64,000 bases of DNA from Saprospiraceae bacterium. Its GTDB lineage: Bacteria > Bacteroidota > Bacteroidia > Chitinophagales > Saprospiraceae. The DNA is taken from contig JAHDCU010000007.1 in NCBI GenBank assembly GCA_020629715.1, forward strand, positions 62,001-126,000, written 5' to 3'. Both the position numbers and the translations under genes were made by a program. The notes under the pieces were generated by a model. The model was not told the DNA's origin, made no database searches, and worked only from the letters and a program-made list of their open reading frames with translations. This document shows, piece by piece, positions 45,375 to 55,584 of the stretch; position 1 is the stretch's first letter; each line of letters starts with the position of its first letter.

Positions 45375-47767
45375 TCCATCGCATAGAAGATATTGGGACA
45401 CATGCGAATGCCATTACACAAATAGCATTTCCAGAAGATACCAAGATTAGAAATTTTTACTACGATAGTCGTAAAGTACTCGTAGGAAAGCATTCATTAT
45501 TCATTGCCCTGTCTACGGCACATCGAGACGGTCATGACTTTATTAAAGAGGCATATGATCTAGGAGTCAGAAACTTCTTAGTAGATACTCAGTATAACAT
45601 AACACTCAAGGCAAACTACATCATCGTAGATAATACTCTTACGGCACTGCAGCACTATGCAAAAGAGTATCGAAAAAGCCTATCAACTAGGATAATTGGA
45701 ATCACCGGCAGTAATGGTAAAACCATCGTAAAAGAGTGGCTCAAGTCAGTTACTAAAGATCACTACGCAGTATTTGCAAGCCCCAATAGCTACAACTCTC
45801 AACTCGGAGTTGCAATGTCTTTATTGATGATACAAGACCATCATGACCTCGCTTTTATAGAATGTGGTATATCTGAAAAAGGAGAAATGATCAAACTTCA
45901 AGACATGGTACAACCTGATGAGGTCATCATGACCAATATCGGTGATGCCCATGATGGTGGTTTCCATACTCGAGAAGAGAAACTTGCAGAAAAACTAATA
46001 CTTACAAAAAATACAAGACAGATCATCTTTAGCGATCATCATGATTTTATCAAAAAACATATTATTCCTAGCGAAAAGGCTAGATCGTGGAGTATAGACT
46101 CACAACATGACGACCAAATTGTCATCAAGCTGATCGCTCAAAATCAATTTTTAAGCTTTATTCTGCCAGAAGGTATCATAGCAAGTCATTCTGTTGAAAA
46201 TCTTGCACATGTGATTGCATTCTGTGCATACAATGAACTGCTAAATCATAATAAACTTCAATATGAAATCAAAAAGCTAGAAAAACTGGACCAGCGACTT
46301 AGTATCCGTACTAATTCCACGGGACTTAGTATTCTCGATGACAGTTTTAGCTGTGATCTAGAATCCATGAAAATCTCATTGTCTAGCTTCAGTAGGTATA
46401 TTATTCCCCAAAAGTCCTTTATTGTATTGACTGATTTTGCAGAAGAACATGGTGATGCCCATCAAAAGTGGAAAACACTCTTGCCAATCATCAATGCAAG
46501 CAATATAACCAGAATACTCTTTGTAGGAACTCAATTAAATAACTTTAGCCACCAGGTTATACCTGAACTTATCGTTGTCAGCAACATTGTAGAACTATAT
46601 CCACATCTGGATAAAATGATCGGTACGTACAAGAGCTGCTTGATCAAAGGAGCATCAAAATATCAGTTATCTAAAATCATCAACTATCTTGAGGATTATA
46701 AGAGTCATAATACTCTGCATATTGATCTTGAAGCACTTAGACATAATGTGGATTATTATAAAAGGAAATTGACCCCTGGGACTAAATGTATTGCCGTCAT
46801 CAAAGCCAATGCCTATGGTAGTAATGCAAAGATTATTGCAAAAGAACTAGTGTTAGCATCTATCGACTATCTAGCTGTCGCATACTTAGCAGAAGGTATA
46901 GAACTACGAAAATCGGGAATCACAACACCCATTATTGTTTTAACTCCAGACCTTAATAATCTAGAACTCTATGAATATTATAATCTAGAACCCCAAGTCT
47001 ATGATTTAGCGGCTTTGAACCAATTATCGAGAGGTAGTAACCTCAAAATACATCTCAATCTTGATACGGGTATGAATCGCTTAGGCATGAAATCTCTTGA
47101 TCTGAAAGCTATTGAAAGCATCAAAAACAAGGTGAAAATTGAGTCCATTTATAGTCATATAAGAGCTACAGAAGATATGGAGGATACAAGCAATACTTAT
47201 CATCAAGTCTCATTGTTTCTAAAAATGTATGATCATATCTCTTCCATCCTCGACTATAAACCCTGGAAACATATTCTCAATTCAGAGGGCATTATCAATT
47301 TTCCGCAGTATTGTTTTGATGCCGTCAGGGTAGGCATTGGTTTATATGGTATAAGTCAAAATCAGAATACTGTACTCCGGACCACACATCGACTAGAAAG
47401 TGAAATTATACAAATCAAAGACGTAGAAGTAGGAGAAACGGTCGGATACGGTAATCAAGATATAGTGCAACAATCTGGATATATTGCTGTCATACCACTT
47501 GGTTACGCAGATGGGATATCAAGACTATTGAGCCAATCTGACTATCAAGTATATATTGGTCAAAAGCAGTACTCCATAATCGGAAAAATATCTATGGATC
47601 AATTAACGATAGCACTAGGAAAAGATGAATATCCTGTAGGTACAAAAGTTGAAATTTTTGGGAAAAATATTTCTCTAGCAAAAATGGCAACGTATGCCCA
47701 TACCATACCCTATGAGCTATTATGTGGCTTATCGTCGCGCATAAAACGAGTCTTCCACAAGGCATAG
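45371..47767 (+). CDS. Fused UDP-MurNAc-tripeptide:D-Ala-D-Ala ligase and alanine racemase
   Basis: 798 residues. The N-terminal MurF half (about 1-450) has the ATP-binding G-I-T-G-S-N-G-K-T near 113-121 and joins D-Ala-D-Ala to the UDP-tripeptide. The second half (about 455-798) is alanine racemase: the PLP lysine in I-K-A-N-A-Y-G near 477, the L-G-Y-A-D-G tyrosine near 711, and R-V-G-I-G-L-Y-G-I in between. This MurF-Alr fusion is characteristic of Bacteroidota. The MurF part has low conservation in the middle and C-terminal regions, so it may be partly degenerate; the racemase looks intact. The fusion links D-Ala supply with its use. Confidence 0.93.
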   Translation: MIHRIEDIGTHANAITQIAFPEDTKIRNFYYDSRKVLVGKHSLFIALSTAHRDGHDFIKEAYDLGVRNFLVDTQYNITLKANYIIVDNTLTALQHYAKEYRKSLSTRIIGITGSNGKTIVKEWLKSVTKDHYAVFASPNSYNSQLGVAMSLLMIQDHHDLAFIECGISEKGEMIKLQDMVQPDEVIMTNIGDAHDGGFHTREEKLAEKLILTKNTRQIIFSDHHDFIKKHIIPSEKARSWSIDSQHDDQIVIKLIAQNQFLSFILPEGIIASHSVENLAHVIAFCAYNELLNHNKLQYEIKKLEKLDQRLSIRTNSTGLSILDDSFSCDLESMKISLSSFSRYIIPQKSFIVLTDFAEEHGDAHQKWKTLLPIINASNITRILFVGTQLNNFSHQVIPELIVVSNIVELYPHLDKMIGTYKSCLIKGASKYQLSKIINYLEDYKSHNTLHIDLEALRHNVDYYKRKLTPGTKCIAVIKANAYGSNAKIIAKELVLASIDYLAVAYLAEGIELRKSGITTPIIVLTPDLNNLELYEYYNLEPQVYDLAALNQLSRGSNLKIHLNLDTGMNRLGMKSLDLKAIESIKNKVKIESIYSHIRATEDMEDTSNTYHQVSLFLKMYDHISSILDYKPWKHILNSEGIINFPQYCFDAVRVGIGLYGISQNQNTVLRTTHRLESEIIQIKDVEVGETVGYGNQDIVQQSGYIAVIPLGYADGISRLLSQSDYQVYIGQKQYSIIGKISMDQLTIALGKDEYPVGTKVEIFGKNISLAKMATYAHTIPYELLCGLSSRIKRVFHKA

Positions 47768-47846
47768 TTCTTCAAAAAGGGATAATCTTTGACGTTAATG
47801 AAACGTTTAAGGCTATTGCCATTAAAATGTACGGTAAATTAATTAG

Positions 47847-47854
47847 TACTTTTG
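47847..47854 (+). promoter_or_regulatory. Candidate -7 element for the PPIase operon
   Basis: TACTTTTG fits TAnnTTTG, 26 bases ahead of the ATG at 47881. No TTG is at the right distance upstream. Confidence 0.45.
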
Positions 47855-47880
47855 CTTTTTTATATGAGACCCTTATCGAT

Positions 47881-49851
47881 ATGAGATTGATCCTACCTAG
47901 ATACTTATTTATCACGATAGCTCTACTAAGTTTTGCGCTAGACTCTTACGGACAAGGAGAGACCCTTTTCGAGGTTGATGGATATCCAGTGACTCAAGAC
48001 GAATTTGAATATATATACAAGAAAAACAATAGCAAAGATGCTGACTATACCAAGCGTAGCCTAGAAGAATATTACGAGTTGTATAAAAAATTTAAACTCA
48101 AAGTCAGAAAAGCACGAGATCTAGGTCTCGATACTTTGCCTCGTCTCAAAAAAGAGCTCCAAGGATACAGAGATCAACTCTCTAAATCATATCTCGTAGA
48201 TAAAGAAATATCCAATAATCTGTTGCAAGAAGCATTCAAAAGACAGCAGCATGATATACGTATGAGTCACATTTTAGTAACCTTATCCCCCAAAGCAAAA
48301 GAAGGTGAGGTAGCCGCTGCTATGATGAAGGCCAAAGACATCAAAAAAGAGATAGACAATGGCAAATCATTTGAAGATGCTGCCAGTGAGTACTCCGCAG
48401 ATAAATCATCCGCTATTAATGGTGGAGACATAGGATATTATACTGCCATGCTACCTGAAGGCTTTTACGAATTGGAAAATGCCTTATATACCACTAGTGT
48501 CGGCAGTATATCTGATATTGTGAGGTCTAAGGTAGGGCTACATATCATTAAAGTAACTGACAAAAGAGATGCCTGGGGTCAAGTAGAAGCTGCTCATTTA
48601 CTTATCCGAAAAAAAGTCGCAGGCAAGGAAAAAACCAATGCTAAATACTTAGCAGATAGCCTATATCAGGAGCTTCAGAATGGTGAAAACTTTGCTGAGC
48701 TCGTAAGAAAGTATAGCGATGATAACACGACCAAAACAAAAGATGGAAGTCTAGGATATTTTGGGATTAATAAATATGATAAAGCTTTTGAAAAAGTAGC
48801 TTTTACGCTAGAAAATGATGGAGACTTCGCCGCTCCAATAGAAACAAAAGTAGGATGGCATATAATCAAAAGATTATCTAAAAGAGACATATCAAATTTT
48901 GATGATGCTAAAAAAAGGTTAACCGCCAAATTAACTAAAGCCAAACGCTATGACATCGCAAAAGAGGCACTCATTGAAAATATTAAGGTCAATGGTAACT
49001 ACCAGCTGGATGAAAAAGCATTTTCAGCATTTGTTAAAAATTTAGACCAGAGCTTTTACACCTACCAATGGAAACCTTATCAGTTTGAAGATGTGAACCT
49101 TTTCACCTTTGATAATGGTATATCCTCGTCACTAAGAGAATTTGCCAATTACCTTAAAAAGAACTCTAGAAAGCGTCTTAGATATGATAAAACTACTCCT
49201 GTAGCAAATGCTGCTAAAGAGATGTTGAATGAATACGTTCAAGATTATGCAATCCAATACGAAGAATCTACACTAGAATCTAAATACCCTGAGTTTAAGG
49301 CTCTGATGAGAGAATATTCTGAAGGAATCTTACTTTTTGAAGTTACAAAAATGAATATCTGGGATAAAGCATCTAGTGACACAGTAGGCCTTGAACGATT
49401 TTTTGAAAACAACAAGTACAAGTATGAATGGAAAGAACGAGCTGTACTAGAGACGTTTACTGTATATACGGATGATATCAATAAAATAAAAGAGATCCGT
49501 AAAGCCATAAAAAAGAAAAGTTGGGAAGAAGTGCAGACTAAATATAACGGACCAGAAGGAAATCTTGTAGAAATGAAAACTGGTACACATGAGTATGGCG
49601 CTAAGATACTCAGTGGTCTCAAGTGGAAGAAAGGAACGATAACCGAACCAGAGTTTGACAAAAAGAAATCCAGAGCTAGCTTCAAATATATACGGGATAT
49701 CCTTCCTGTCTCTCCTAAGACTCTTGATGAATCACGTGGATATGTGTTGGCTGATTATCAGGATTTTTTAGAATTACTCTGGATCAAAGAGTTAGAAGAA
49801 TCCTATGAGGTTAAAAGAAATGATAAGCTATTTTATTCTTTGATAAAGTAA
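47881..49851 (+). CDS. Periplasmic peptidyl-prolyl isomerase, two PpiC domains
   Basis: 656 residues from ATG at 47881; the frame is open further upstream inside murF-alr, but the signal peptide (about 1-21, D-S-Y-G-Q) begins here. A SurA-like helical N-part (25-120) is followed by two PpiC domains: about 123-220 (M-S-H-I-L-V-T-L) and about 230-325 (A-A-H-L-L-I-R-K). The rest (330-656) is a large helical and strand region without recognised domain, with a weak parvulin-like trace. It is probably a chaperone of outer-membrane proteins. First of three chaperone-type genes; the stop shares one base with the next start. Confidence 0.9.
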   Translation: MRLILPRYLFITIALLSFALDSYGQGETLFEVDGYPVTQDEFEYIYKKNNSKDADYTKRSLEEYYELYKKFKLKVRKARDLGLDTLPRLKKELQGYRDQLSKSYLVDKEISNNLLQEAFKRQQHDIRMSHILVTLSPKAKEGEVAAAMMKAKDIKKEIDNGKSFEDAASEYSADKSSAINGGDIGYYTAMLPEGFYELENALYTTSVGSISDIVRSKVGLHIIKVTDKRDAWGQVEAAHLLIRKKVAGKEKTNAKYLADSLYQELQNGENFAELVRKYSDDNTTKTKDGSLGYFGINKYDKAFEKVAFTLENDGDFAAPIETKVGWHIIKRLSKRDISNFDDAKKRLTAKLTKAKRYDIAKEALIENIKVNGNYQLDEKAFSAFVKNLDQSFYTYQWKPYQFEDVNLFTFDNGISSSLREFANYLKKNSRKRLRYDKTTPVANAAKEMLNEYVQDYAIQYEESTLESKYPEFKALMREYSEGILLFEVTKMNIWDKASSDTVGLERFFENNKYKYEWKERAVLETFTVYTDDINKIKEIRKAIKKKSWEEVQTKYNGPEGNLVEMKTGTHEYGAKILSGLKWKKGTITEPEFDKKKSRASFKYIRDILPVSPKTLDESRGYVLADYQDFLELLWIKELEESYEVKRNDKLFYSLIK

Positions 49852-50705
49852 TGTCATTCATTAAAAAAAATATAACATCATGGATGATATTGTTGATATC
49901 TGGAATGATCATCAGCTGTACTGATAAAGCATCTAAGACCGAGGGAGATTTATTACTTGCAGAGGTCAACCATGAAAAGTTATATCTCAGCGATATACGA
50001 GAAAAATTACCAAACTCAATATCAGAGATTGATAGTACGGCTTTTGTCGCAAGCTATATAGAGCAATGGATACATAAAACTTTACTGACAGAAAAAGCAG
50101 AAAGCCAATTTGGAGAATCGTCAAATATTAAAGCCCTTACTGATCAATATCGCAATGATCTCCTTATCCATGAGTTAGAAAAATATTTGATTTCAAATTT
50201 TAAGGACACTATTATCGAAGAGGCTGAGTTGATGCAGTACTACGATAAATATAAAAATGACTTCAAGTCTGAAGAGGAATACTTATTAGTGGAATATGCC
50301 ATTATTAATGAAAAAGCAGCAGGTATTGATAGATTTTTTGAATCGTGGAAGAAAAAAGAAAAAGCCATCATTAAGGCTTTTTGTGATAAAAGTGCAGATC
50401 ATTATTGTATAAACGATGATTGCTGGAAGACCAAAGAGGAGCTCAATCAACTTAATATACCTTCTAAATATGTGAAAAAAAATAAGTCTTCACAGTTCAA
50501 TAAATTATCGAGTGAATTTTTTGTTCGAGTCATTGATAAAAAGGAAAAAGGTGAGATAAAACCTTTTAATAAGGCCAAGGCTGAGATAAAAGCCATACTA
50601 TTGCATCGCCGAAAGCGAAATATTCTTCAAAGTGAGGCAGCAAGACTAAAGGAAGAAATGTTAAAAAAGAATAAGATTAAAAATTACCTAAAACTTGTAC
50701 AATGA
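49851..50705 (+). CDS. SurA-like lipoprotein, PPIase domain not seen
   Basis: 284 residues. Lipobox I-I-S-C with Cys23 after a hydrophobic segment (about 11-22), so it is lipid-anchored in the periplasm. Residues 34-110 resemble a SurA N-terminal helical domain (A-E-V-N-H-E-K-L-Y-L-S-D-I-R-E-K-L-P). The rest is basic and helical; I cannot see a PpiC motif such as H-I-L. Flanked by PPIase genes with 1- and 4-base overlaps, it is likely a partner subunit or a diverged chaperone. Confidence 0.75.
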   Translation: MSFIKKNITSWMILLISGMIISCTDKASKTEGDLLLAEVNHEKLYLSDIREKLPNSISEIDSTAFVASYIEQWIHKTLLTEKAESQFGESSNIKALTDQYRNDLLIHELEKYLISNFKDTIIEEAELMQYYDKYKNDFKSEEEYLLVEYAIINEKAAGIDRFFESWKKKEKAIIKAFCDKSADHYCINDDCWKTKEELNQLNIPSKYVKKNKSSQFNKLSSEFFVRVIDKKEKGEIKPFNKAKAEIKAILLHRRKRNILQSEAARLKEEMLKKNKIKNYLKLVQ

Positions 50706-52069
50706 GTTACAAAGCAACATGGTGTTTATTTTTTGTACTGTTCAGTACTATCCTGATAAGTCAAGAAAGACTAGTAATCGATAGAGTAATTGCTAAAGTC
50801 GGCGGTGAAATTATATTATTATCAGATGTCGAGGAGCAGTATTCGTATCTTAAGGACAATGCAGTCGATATTGACGAAAGTGCCAAATGCGAATTGCTAG
50901 AAAATATCATTGCTCAGAAAATGTTTATCCACCATGCTAAACTCGATAGTATAGTAGTGACCGATGAAGAGGTAAACTCACAGTTAGATTTTCGATTTGA
51001 CAATGTACTAGCGCAGATGAATGGTGACGAAGAATTTTTTCAAGAATACTACGGTGCTACGGTACAGGAAATGAAAGAAAAATATCGTGATGATCAAAAA
51101 GAACAGATCCTACTAGAAAGAATGCAACAATCACTCATCGCGAATGTAAATATAACACCTGAGGAAGTACAAGAATACTATACTTCTGTACCTACCGATA
51201 GTCTTCCTTTTCTAAGCTCTGAGGTAGAAATCAGCGAAATCGTTTATGAACCTAAGGTAAATCCACAAGAAGAAAAAAAAGCTCTTGATCTTATCACCAA
51301 TATCAGGGAGAGAATTGTAAATGATGGAGAGTCATTTGAAGAACTTGCCAGGACTTACTCTATGGATGGTTCAGCTCAAGGAGGAGGAGATTTAGGTTTT
51401 GCCAAGCGTGGTAGTTATGTAGCAGATTTTGAGGCGGCGGCCTATAGTCTTAAAAAAGATGAAATTTCTGAAATTGTACAAACAGAATTTGGTTTTCATA
51501 TCATCCAAATGATTGAGCGGCGAGGAAATAAAATACATGTACGACATATCCTAATCATTCCAGAAATTACAGATGCTGATCTCGAAAAATCTCGATTAGA
51601 ACTCGACTCTATACAAAATGAAATCGTCATCGATAGTATGAGTTTCGAAACTGCTGTAAGACTTCACTCTGTAGAAAGCAGTCCAAGCTATGGATTTGGA
51701 GGTCGTATGAAAAATCCAAAGTCAGGGGATACCTTTTTTGAAACTGGAGACTTACCCCCAGACATTTATTTTGCTATCGATACGATGTCTGTGGGTCAGA
51801 TATCTTCTCCTCTAGAATATACAACACCACGTGGTGAAAAACTCTATCGTATCATCAAATTGGACTCCCGTAGTAGCCCACACCGAGTATCTATAGATCA
51901 AGATTATGATCGAATCAAAATCATGGCCAAAGAAGGGAAGAAAAGCCAATATATGGCTGAATGGATAGATGAGAAGTATAATAAGACCTTCATAGAAATC
52001 GAAGAGGACTATAGAGGATGTAGCAATCTAGATAAATGGATTAGGAAAGGTATTGTCTTAAAACCTTAA
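50702..52069 (+). CDS. SurA-type peptidyl-prolyl isomerase
   Basis: 455 residues, the size of SurA (about 430). Signal peptide about 1-21 (I-L-I-S-Q), SurA N-domain (R-V-I-A-K-V-G-G-E-I-I-L-L-S-D-V near 26-41), then two PpiC domains: about 175-275 (with G-G-D-L-G-F-A-K-R-G) and about 277-385 (V-R-H-I-L-I-I-P). It should chaperone unfolded outer-membrane proteins in the periplasm. Overlaps the preceding gene by ATGA. The 738 bases after it hold no gene. Confidence 0.92.
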   Translation: MSYKATWCLFFVLFSTILISQERLVIDRVIAKVGGEIILLSDVEEQYSYLKDNAVDIDESAKCELLENIIAQKMFIHHAKLDSIVVTDEEVNSQLDFRFDNVLAQMNGDEEFFQEYYGATVQEMKEKYRDDQKEQILLERMQQSLIANVNITPEEVQEYYTSVPTDSLPFLSSEVEISEIVYEPKVNPQEEKKALDLITNIRERIVNDGESFEELARTYSMDGSAQGGGDLGFAKRGSYVADFEAAAYSLKKDEISEIVQTEFGFHIIQMIERRGNKIHVRHILIIPEITDADLEKSRLELDSIQNEIVIDSMSFETAVRLHSVESSPSYGFGGRMKNPKSGDTFFETGDLPPDIYFAIDTMSVGQISSPLEYTTPRGEKLYRIIKLDSRSSPHRVSIDQDYDRIKIMAKEGKKSQYMAEWIDEKYNKTFIEIEEDYRGCSNLDKWIRKGIVLKP

Positions 52070-52371: not shown

Positions 52372-52411
52372 AAAAAAAATGGCCGATCCGAATTCCCCCT
52401 TGGACCGACCA
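52372..52411 (-). terminator. Intrinsic terminator of the reverse-strand small RNA
   Basis: On the reverse strand TGGTCGGTCC pairs with GGATCGGCCA (52402-52411 with 52380-52389), two G.U pairs, 12-base loop, then eight T. Confidence 0.72.
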
Positions 52412-52463
52412 TCGATCTTAAGTATTCTCCTTAAAAATCTGAACAACTACCTATGTGCCAAAT
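52372..52463 (-). ncRNA. Candidate small RNA with intrinsic terminator
   Basis: About 92 bases. A -7 box TAGCTTTG (52470-52477, reverse strand) precedes it; no -33 TTG was found. The RNA can fold a hairpin around CTTAAG (6-bp stem, seven-base loop) and then a 10-bp terminator hairpin followed by eight U. The terminator has two G.U pairs that would be C.A mismatches on the forward strand, which favours a real reverse transcript. No ORF lies upstream on this strand for several kilobases. It does not show SRP, tmRNA or RNase P signatures that I recognise. Function unknown. Confidence 0.5.
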
Positions 52464-52469
52464 CCTTGC

Positions 52470-52477
52470 CAAAGCTA
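52470..52477 (-). promoter_or_regulatory. Candidate -7 element of the small RNA
   Basis: The reverse strand reads TAGCTTTG, a fit to TAnnTTTG. A start near 52463 gives a transcript of about 92 bases that ends at the terminator. No -33 TTG was found. Confidence 0.4.
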
Positions 52478-52710: not shown

Positions 52711-52752
52711 TTTGTCATTTTGTCATAAAACCTTAACTGGCATTCCATTTGA
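52711..52752 (+). promoter_or_regulatory. Sigma-54-like htpG promoter with upstream GTCAT repeat
   Basis: TGGCA at 52738-52742 and TTTGA at 52748-52752 lie at the -24/-12 spacing of sigma-54 promoters (GG, ten bases, then GA in place of GC). Upstream, GTCAT is repeated at 52714 and 52722 (8 bases apart), a possible enhancer or operator. No TAnnTTTG box fits better. The start would be near 52764. Confidence 0.38.
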
Positions 52753-52807
52753 CCTTAGCATAGATAATTAGTTATTTTCAATTATCTGGCTAAAAATTTA
52801 ATAGCAC

Positions 52808-54673
52808 ATGCAAAAAGGTCATATTTCGGTACAGACGGAAAATATATTTCCTATCATTAAAAAGTTTCTTTACTCTGATCAAGAGATATTTCTCCGGGAA
52901 CTTGTATCAAATGCTGTAGATGCCACATCCAAAATAAAGACACTCGGCTCTAGAGGAGAATTCAAAGGAGATCTAGGAGAACTTACTATAGATATCAATC
53001 TGGATAAAGAAGCAAAGACATTGACCATACACGATCGCGGGATCGGAATGACAGAAGATGAAGTCATGAAATACCTCAATCAGGTAGCATTTTCAAGTGC
53101 CTCTGATTTTCTAGAAAAATATAAAGAGGATACTAATATCATTGGACACTTTGGATTGGGTTTCTACTCTGCTTTTATGGTCGCAGAGAAAGTAGAAGTC
53201 CGAACCAAGTCATATAAAGATACTGAAGGCGTAACTTGGATATGTGACGGCAATCCAGAATATGAAATAGGAAGTAATGACAAATCAGATCGCGGTACAG
53301 AGATTATTTTACATGTAGGAGAAGACAGTGTAGAATTTTTAGAGCAAACTAGGATTCAAACCCTTTTGGATAAATACTGTAAGTTTCTTCCTGTAGAAAT
53401 ACGTTTTGGTACCAAAACCGAATATGATTATGAGGGCGAAGGCGAGGATAGAAAGCAAGTAGAAAAACAAGTAGAAAACATCATCAACAACCCTAACCCG
53501 GCTTGGAGAAAGCAACCATCCGAGTTGAAAGATGAAGATTATCAAAGTTTTTATAAAGAACTGTACCCGTATAGTCAACCTCCTCTCTTTTGGATACACT
53601 TAAATATAGACTACCCATTTAACCTCACTGGTATCTTATACTTCCCAAAACTGAATAATAGTCTAGAAGTACAGAAAAATAAAATTCAGTTGTACTCTAA
53701 TCAAGTTTATGTCACCGACGATGTAAAGGAAATCGTACCTGAGTTTTTAACATTGTTACATGGAGTCATTGACTCCCCAGATATCCCGCTCAATGTATCA
53801 AGATCTTATCTACAGAGTGATAGTAATGTAAGAAAGATCACGAATTACATTACAAAAAAAGTAGCTGATAAGCTCAATGATCTCTTCAAAAAGGATCGTG
53901 AAAACTATGAGTCAAAGTGGGATGAAATCTCTGTATTTGTCAAATATGGAATGATCTCGGATGAGAAATTTTATGACAAAGCAGTGAAATATACGCTCTT
54001 CAAAAATATAGATGCAAAATATGCAACTATAGAAGAATATAAAGAGAAAGTAAAAGCTAATCAGACCGATAAGCACGATAAGATCATACTACTATATACC
54101 AATAATCCAAAAGAGCATCACAGCTATGTTCTATCTGCACAGAGCTACGGTTATGATGTATTGGAGTTTGATACAGTGATCGATAATCACTATATGCAAC
54201 ATCTGGAACAAAAACTAGGCAATGTGACCTTTGTACGAGTAGATAGTGATATACCATCTAAGTTAGTGCAGAAAGAAGAAGAGCAAACCTCAGTGCTTAG
54301 TGAAAAAGAGCAAGAGAAAGTCAAAGGATTATTTGTAGAGTCACTCGGATCTGATAAAGAAAATAGCATATCTCTTGAAGCATTATCTCCAGAAGATCAT
54401 CCTGTGGTGATTACTGTTCCAGAGTTTATGCGTCGTATGAAGGAGATGCAAGCACTCCAAGGCAATAGTTTTGGAGACTTTCCTGATACCTTTAATATCG
54501 TAATCAATACTAATCATCCTTTAGTAGCAGACAAACTATTGAAAATGAAAAGTGCTGAAAAGAAGACTAAGTTTGCCAACTACCTGTATAATCTTGCGCT
54601 GCTCAATCAGAATAAATTGAAAGGTGAAGAGATGTCGAAGTTTATCAACCAGTCAATAGAGTTTATGTCATAG
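52808..54673 (+). CDS. htpG: Molecular chaperone HtpG (Hsp90)
   Basis: 621 residues, normal for the bacterial Hsp90. ATP-dependent dimeric chaperone of the cytoplasm. N-domain ATP motifs: E-L-V-S-N-A-V-D-A-T near 37-46, D-R-G-I-G-M near 78-83, and G-H-F-G-L-G-F-Y-S-A-F near 115-125. The middle domain has P-L-F-W-I-H-L-N-I-D-Y and V-S-R-S-Y-L-Q-S-D, and the C-terminal dimerisation part ends with L-A-L-L-N-Q-N-K-L-K-G-E-E-M. It is a single gene with its own terminator; a heat-shock-type promoter is likely. Confidence 0.97.
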   Translation: MQKGHISVQTENIFPIIKKFLYSDQEIFLRELVSNAVDATSKIKTLGSRGEFKGDLGELTIDINLDKEAKTLTIHDRGIGMTEDEVMKYLNQVAFSSASDFLEKYKEDTNIIGHFGLGFYSAFMVAEKVEVRTKSYKDTEGVTWICDGNPEYEIGSNDKSDRGTEIILHVGEDSVEFLEQTRIQTLLDKYCKFLPVEIRFGTKTEYDYEGEGEDRKQVEKQVENIINNPNPAWRKQPSELKDEDYQSFYKELYPYSQPPLFWIHLNIDYPFNLTGILYFPKLNNSLEVQKNKIQLYSNQVYVTDDVKEIVPEFLTLLHGVIDSPDIPLNVSRSYLQSDSNVRKITNYITKKVADKLNDLFKKDRENYESKWDEISVFVKYGMISDEKFYDKAVKYTLFKNIDAKYATIEEYKEKVKANQTDKHDKIILLYTNNPKEHHSYVLSAQSYGYDVLEFDTVIDNHYMQHLEQKLGNVTFVRVDSDIPSKLVQKEEEQTSVLSEKEQEKVKGLFVESLGSDKENSISLEALSPEDHPVVITVPEFMRRMKEMQALQGNSFGDFPDTFNIVINTNHPLVADKLLKMKSAEKKTKFANYLYNLALLNQNKLKGEEMSKFINQSIEFMS

Positions 54674-55455: not shown

Positions 55456-55561
55456 TAGAACTTTAATACATTGATTAGGTGTTACTTATACATATATCTA
55501 GAAAATAATTAGATATTTTTTCTATCAGAGTAAACCCTTAATAGAAAGTTGGTACAGTTTT

Positions 55562-55584
55562 GGATTACTAGATAAAAGTAATCC
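55562..55584 (+). promoter_or_regulatory. Inverted repeat ahead of the ArsR gene, candidate operator
   Basis: GGATTACT at 55562-55569 and AGTAATCC at 55577-55584 are exact complements with a 7-base spacer, 25 bases ahead of the ATG at 55610. ArsR-family repressors commonly bind imperfect palindromes over their own promoter, so this is a natural operator candidate; it could also be an RNA hairpin. Confidence 0.45.

Follow-up and report, generated by a model that had tools for sequence, protein, structure and literature searches.

A 64,000-nucleotide stretch of DNA from a Saprospiraceae bacterium (the window) carries, on the minus strand between a SurA/PPIC-type isomerase gene and the chaperone gene htpG, a compact unit that looks like a small RNA (sRNA) gene. 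The initial annotation had proposed an independent reverse-strand small RNA at this place, and terminator covariation together with conserved synteny bears this out: on comparative evidence the RNA is real, and it is predicted to be transcribed. The features of the locus are as follows.

50702-52069, plus strand: gene for a SurA/PPIC-type peptidyl-prolyl isomerase (PF00639), convergent neighbor
52445-52372, minus strand: predicted 74-nt sRNA (TGTTCAG...T8), from conservation and folds, with a predicted +1
52472-52456, minus strand: putative sigma-54 -24/-12 promoter TTGGCAAGGATTTGGCA (GG at 52470-52469, GC at 52458-52457), from the columns of 81 members
52439-52414, minus strand: hairpin 1, GAUUUUUAAG-GAGAAUA-CUUAAGAUC, from folds
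52413-52378, minus strand: intrinsic terminator hairpin with an 11-bp core, from folds and covariation
52399-52395, minus strand: GGGGG at the apex of the terminator hairpin, a proposed site of contact, from folds of members
52379-52372, minus strand: T8 terminator tract, from the sequence
52713-52725, plus strand: TGTCATTTTGTCA repeat adjoining the htpG site just upstream, possible activator site
52738-52753, plus strand: sigma-54-like site of htpG, TGGCATTCCATTTGAC (GG-N10-GA), facing the sRNA, from the pattern in htpG upstream regions
52808-54673, plus strand: htpG (Hsp90; PF00183), divergent neighbor

Three consecutive SurA/PPIC-like isomerase genes occupy 47722-52069 on the plus strand, the first recognized by eye, the second a weak and the third a strong match by Pfam.

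Promoter and structure of the small RNA

Judged from its conserved columns, the promoter appears to be of the sigma-54 -24/-12 class and not a primary-sigma -7 box. Our comparison covers 81 members (the window and 80 stretches, taken from matches in 102 genomes), and the promoter, TTCAG, G-run, and synteny counts over this set include close relatives. GG-N10-GC, at -24/-12 and in a TGGCA/TGC context, is found in 60 of the 81 members, and the window is among those with GC; GG-N10-G[CA] is found in 73, and 8 have neither. The column consensus is TTGGCA(A)G..AT..GC(A), with frequencies of T.95, T.99, G.99, G 1.0, C.99, A.99 ... T 1.0 ... G.98, C.75; for distant members, the conservation of promoter and G loop is partly circular, as the model that detected these members contains both. 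The window's genome encodes a single RpoN as well as three strong Sigma54_activat proteins, and one Sigma54_activat protein that was scanned has a response-regulator domain. A sigma-70 promoter scan and a simple terminator scan gave nothing specific. Genome-wide, TGGCAN6TNGCA has 30 matches compared with 8 for the reversed pattern, but 28 of the 30 lie inside open stretches of at least 119 codons, so that this motif carries no weight on its own. Elsewhere in the window, TTGGTACAGTTTTGGA (55549-55564, plus strand) resembles a sigma-54 site and lies some 46 bases ahead of the gene of an ArsR-type regulator (55610), with a YceI gene next.

No clear common activator motif was found in 78 regions upstream of the sRNA, where the k-mers and dyads were mostly AT-rich words. 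Slight enrichment was seen for AAAATACC (9 of the 78 regions versus 1.0 expected) and TTTTTCAT (12 versus 1.2 expected). Some members, for example, L067, L069, and L072, have AAAATACC at a distance of about 30 bases upstream of the -24 element.

A sigma-54 start is expected 12 bases past the C of the GC. The predicted +1 is 52445, which would give an RNA of about 74 nt; conservation falls after the -24/-12 element and rises again at this position. In a 30-member alignment the information content is high in the sigma-54 element, drops to 0.2 to 0.8 bits in the ten columns that precede the predicted start, and reaches 1.1, 1.8, and 2.0 bits in the TGT of TGTTCAG. TTCAG stands at offset 27 in 30 of the 81 members and at offsets 26 to 30 in 45, and its absence from 34 means that the block after +1 is kept in part of the family only. 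The length of about 92 bases given by the initial annotation came from a misread 5' end, and about 74 nt is likelier.

Over 52372-52477 the minus strand folds better than its shuffles (z of -2.74; 3 of 200 as good), while the plus strand has a weaker fold (z of -1.29; 22 of 200 as good). Trimming the minus strand to 52443-52372 improves the z score to -3.55, with none of 200 shuffles as good. The two hairpins described earlier survive in part: the first exists in the trimmed RNA (52439-52414), but the 5' hairpin as originally drawn is partly promoter DNA. The second is indeed followed by eight U, since minus-strand 52379-52372 is T8 after an 11-bp GC-rich hairpin, and its two G.U pairs (one U.G and one G.U) are both mismatches on the other strand, as had been pointed out.

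Covariation in related genomes, suggested at the outset as a check, is strong in the terminator. In alignments fitted to the covariance model, which favors the model's structure, 11 of 11 terminator pairs have two-sided changes, with 96% of cells paired among 29 distinct members and 95.4% among 79. Two-sided cells number 66 versus 20.9 in shuffles (29 distinct) and 182 versus 47.6 (79 distinct), and 0 of 500 shuffles reach either value. The covariation score is 0.458 versus 0.244 in shuffles for the 30 members (29 distinct), where 28 of 500 shuffles reach the count of further pair types, one of five measures of covariation. For the 81 members (79 distinct) it is 0.494 versus 0.231, no shuffle reaches any of the five measures, and sliding the pair partners drops the score to 0.157 at most. 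The inner 5 pairs of hairpin 1 have 95.7% of cells paired and no two-sided change among the 29 distinct close members; among the 79 distinct members 89.5% are paired, with two-sided changes in all 5.

The loop of the terminator hairpin is conserved as well. A run of at least four G lies in the predicted apical loop in 72 of the 81 members (folds of the 3' part), although this conservation is partly circular for the weakest members because the covariance model includes the loop. Over the whole match, the longest G run has 6 bases in 40 members, 5 in 22, 4 in 13, and 3 in 5, and there is none in 1, the last being cut by a contig end (L150 is the member ending at a contig edge). At least four G in a row occur in the central 18 bases of 65 of 70 recognized sRNA hairpins versus 2 of 38 other terminators from the same loci, as called by one simple terminator finder, with the 38 controls de-duplicated and the 70 sRNA hairpins not. 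The G run is therefore specific to the sRNA terminator and no general terminator feature. Loop and stem are kept, while the stretch between +1 and the terminator differs from clade to clade.

A small protein is not indicated, as no conserved reading frame was found: frames of at least 70 aa overlap the RNA in only 9 of the 81 loci, 8 of them on the RNA strand. By sequence, the unit has what marks a bacterial trans-acting sRNA, namely, its own promoter, a conserved structure, and an intrinsic terminator, without a conserved frame. The remark that it fits no known RNA family agrees with our Rfam 15 scan, which gave 0 matches at or above the gathering threshold in the window; the weak matches up to an E value of 10 were four, the best with 17 bits versus a cutoff of 50, and Qrr was not among them.

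Distribution and gene neighborhood in Saprospiraceae

The window's genome has a single copy of the RNA. Two other genomes of the genus carry it beside htpG with 95 and 99% identity. In a fourth genome (G004) a diverged copy sits at a different place, flanked by genes that by eye resemble pcrB and an AI-2E exporter, and its terminator stem still pairs through changes on both sides. A DNA search of 60 relatives yielded 17 loci beyond the own copy and the two same-genus matches. Eleven of the 17 were inspected, only the G004 locus (L004) proved to be a true member, and the remaining weak matches were then dropped.

A first covariance model built on four members found matches in 95 of 398 family genomes at E values of ≤0.1. 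A second, built on 30 members, found 102 of the 398 Saprospiraceae genomes at E values of ≤0.01, about a quarter, including 75 of the 275 good genomes (those among the 398 that pass 90% completeness and 5% contamination) and 31 of the 112 genera of the family; the E values of the models are rough, and searches over more than 40 genomes ran with stricter filters, by which weak matches are lost. In samples of the order and of the phylum, both partly made of Saprospiraceae, it matched 20 of 248 and 3 of 296 genomes, respectively; every match was within Saprospiraceae, and outside the family these two samples gave none. The core sequence occurs in ten database records, each of them a metagenome-assembled genome of Saprospiraceae or Saprospirales. 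Some genomes have two or three matches (G171, with 3, G072, G271, and others). Divergent copies occur in genus g70 (L143, L156, and L158).

The pattern of a sigma-54 element, G5, and T6 matched in 14 of 375 phylum genomes, three of which are known members, and the reversed control gave 6 matches in 5 genomes; the other 11 genomes were judged from the first 80 letters only. A different unit of the form TTGGCA ... G-run ... T6, which may be a separate element, is shared by two or three genomes (L206/L208; L209-L211) in each of two further families of the phylum.

The small RNA adjoins htpG, as first noted, both in the window and in conserved synteny. In 24 of the 81 loci htpG is found upstream at a distance of no more than three frames, divergent in 24 of 24 and with another frame between in four, and a SurA/PPIC-type operon is near in 25; one or the other is present in 38 and both in 11. 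This synteny was not used in the search for members. It extends to 15 of 27 genera and to 14 of the 25 matches below 50 bits, so at least those 14 look true. The remaining 43 of the 81 loci have neither htpG nor a SurA-type operon, and their neighbors are common mainly within genera. Ten neighboring proteins were scanned in all; those from such loci gave FtsX, Beta-lactamase, Sortilin-Vps10, MFS, HD, E1 dehydrogenase, and AraC-type matches, and one gave none.

htpG itself has a sigma-54-like site that faces the sRNA. TGG[CT][AG]-N6-[TG]-N-G[CA] was found in 17 of the 24 htpG upstream regions versus 2.3% of mononucleotide shuffles; 16 of the 17 sites have GA where the classical -12 element has GC, and 7 of the 24 regions are without a site. 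A repeat of the TGTCA-N3-TGNCA type was found in 10 of the 24 regions. The htpG-type pattern has 10 matches in the window's genome compared with 5 for the reversed control, and seven lie inside long frames. Besides the one at htpG, an intergenic match, TTGGTACGGTATTTGAC (L235, C14:28780 of the own genome), stands before a lytic-transglycosylase gene (SLT, LysM), which is a possible further sigma-54 target. In Flavobacterium psychrophilum, mapped starts with predicted sigma-54 motifs were described before htpG, dnaK, groESL, grpE-dnaJ, lon, clpB, and skp, another sigma-54-motif start lies 118 bp from the htpG start and is assigned to a neighboring locus tag, and the sigma-54-motif list also holds a putative muramidase (PMC9723704).

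Proposed function and alternative readings

We give a probability of about 60% to the reading that this is a sigma-54-dependent trans-acting sRNA, co-regulated with chaperones, whose G loop contacts C-rich leaders. Transcription of the gene for the roughly 74-nt sRNA would depend on sigma-54 (RpoN) RNA polymerase together with an enhancer-binding protein, and because htpG has a facing sigma-54-like promoter, chaperone and sRNA would be produced jointly when proteins or the envelope are under stress. As the point of contact the G-run loop is the best candidate, since it is kept while the part from +1 to the terminator changes between clades. It would make the first contact with C-rich stretches in the leaders of target mRNAs and lower their translation, and the sRNA would act as the non-coding arm of a sigma-54 chaperone/envelope stress regulon. 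A broader version, to which we lean less than to its opposite, is that such an arm of the sigma-54 heat shock/envelope stress regulon exists family-wide in Bacteroidota, divergent from Hsp90, with the terminator itself as the targeting element and one fixed G4-6 contact.

Candidate targets were sought through base complementarity. C runs were not enriched in the leaders of the fetched loci (3 of C5 or longer versus 2 of G5 or longer in 28.8 kb). TTCCCCCTT has 10 sites in the own genome, including the one in the sRNA; because the word is unchanged on reversal, the reversed control is uninformative. Two of the other nine sites are intergenic. One, a C5 stretch, follows closely on a rhodanese-like frame and precedes an MS-channel-type gene; the other precedes a small frame that is helix-turn-helix-like by eye. 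Their predicted duplexes have energies of -17.4 and -15.8 kcal/mol, values reached by 1 and 3 of 500 mononucleotide shuffles, which is weak support because the two candidates were chosen for matching. The C5 stretch before the MS-channel-type gene is a weak candidate lead.

This outcome of the C-run and TTCCCCCTT searches, without clear targets, also suits the main rival, in which a sigma-54-driven RNA binds a protein as a decoy or cofactor, as CsrB or GlmY does, and the G-run loop is the protein site with no mRNA pairing. The constancy of loop and stem next to a middle part that differs between clades favors it too. However, a plain homopolymer run suits pairing equally. CsrB/RsmZ-type decoys carry several GGA hairpin loops, whereas here there is one G-run hairpin per RNA, unlike in multi-site decoys, and many loops read CUGGGGGGUA by eye, without GGA, which makes a CsrA-type site unlikely. 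We regard protein binding as unlikely overall, with perhaps a minority share of the probability.

Far less probable is that there is no regulatory RNA and that the terminator simply closes a primary-sigma transcript or shields the convergent SurA-type operon. A terminator would be useful in the window, where the SurA-type gene downstream is convergent, but the downstream gene is codirectional in 38 of 78 loci, and the reading leaves aside the conserved -24/-12 element with the block after +1, the dispersed loci and extra copies (3 matches in G171), and the G run, which is no general terminator feature. Those codirectional loci could in turn speak for a 5' leader in which a regulated terminator controls the gene that follows; we give this very little credence, as the gene is convergent in 40 of 78 loci, the window included, and the loci do not share one family of downstream gene. 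Equally hard to credit is a 92-nt sRNA made from the primary-sigma -7 box TAGCTTTG of the initial annotation, which is present in the window (52477-52470) but recurs as TAnnTTTG at that place in only 2 of the 81 members, window included, its TA being absent already from the other two genomes of the genus while the overlapping -24/-12 element is kept.

Relation to known small RNAs

To our knowledge, few sRNA families have been described in Bacteroidota. MicA and RybB are the non-coding arms of sigma-E, cases in which a stress sigma factor makes sRNA beside its protein regulon. FoxJ of Fusobacterium is likewise described as the sRNA arm of a stress sigma factor (PMC11005410). The Saprospiraceae RNA differs from all three in having another sigma factor, in being another RNA, and in that its targets are candidates. 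Qrr sRNAs, like the Saprospiraceae RNA, occur in several copies in some genomes. Those of Vibrionaceae are reported to depend likewise on sigma-54 and enhancer-binding proteins (LuxO/SypG) (PMC10162802). Compared with them, the Saprospiraceae RNA is in a different phylum, has no Rfam match, is about 74 nt long with two hairpins and a G-run terminator loop, and lies in an htpG neighborhood.

Among open-licence papers, supplements aside, we found no such RNA in Saprospiraceae and a single published indication that Bacteroidota have a sigma-54-driven RNA, namely, Rfp36 of F. psychrophilum, a putative regulatory RNA with a sigma-54-motif promoter (PMC9723704). Compared by description, the two are alike in phylum and in the sigma-54-type promoter, and the list that holds Rfp36 also has chaperone and envelope genes; they differ in that Rfp36 is in expression cluster B419 and htpG in B254 (PMC9723704), and the model of the Saprospiraceae RNA matched nothing outside Saprospiraceae in the phylum sample. 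FopS and GibS of Bacteroides are also short Bacteroidota sRNAs with a Rho-independent terminator and paralogs, in a phylum described as having no classical sRNA chaperones, but FopS is reported to have primary-sigma promoters, a single-stranded 5' seed, and a structure stated as deposited in Rfam (PMC11697453), whereas the Saprospiraceae RNA has no Rfam match.

Sigma-54-driven sRNAs as such are thus already known from Qrr; what is new here is the family, the phylum setting, and the unusual conserved terminator loop. The G-run loop offers a clear element for testing, and the covariance model can be used to annotate the RNA family. If the proposed reading is true, a structured and widely kept sRNA beside htpG would tie the chaperone regulon to RNA control.
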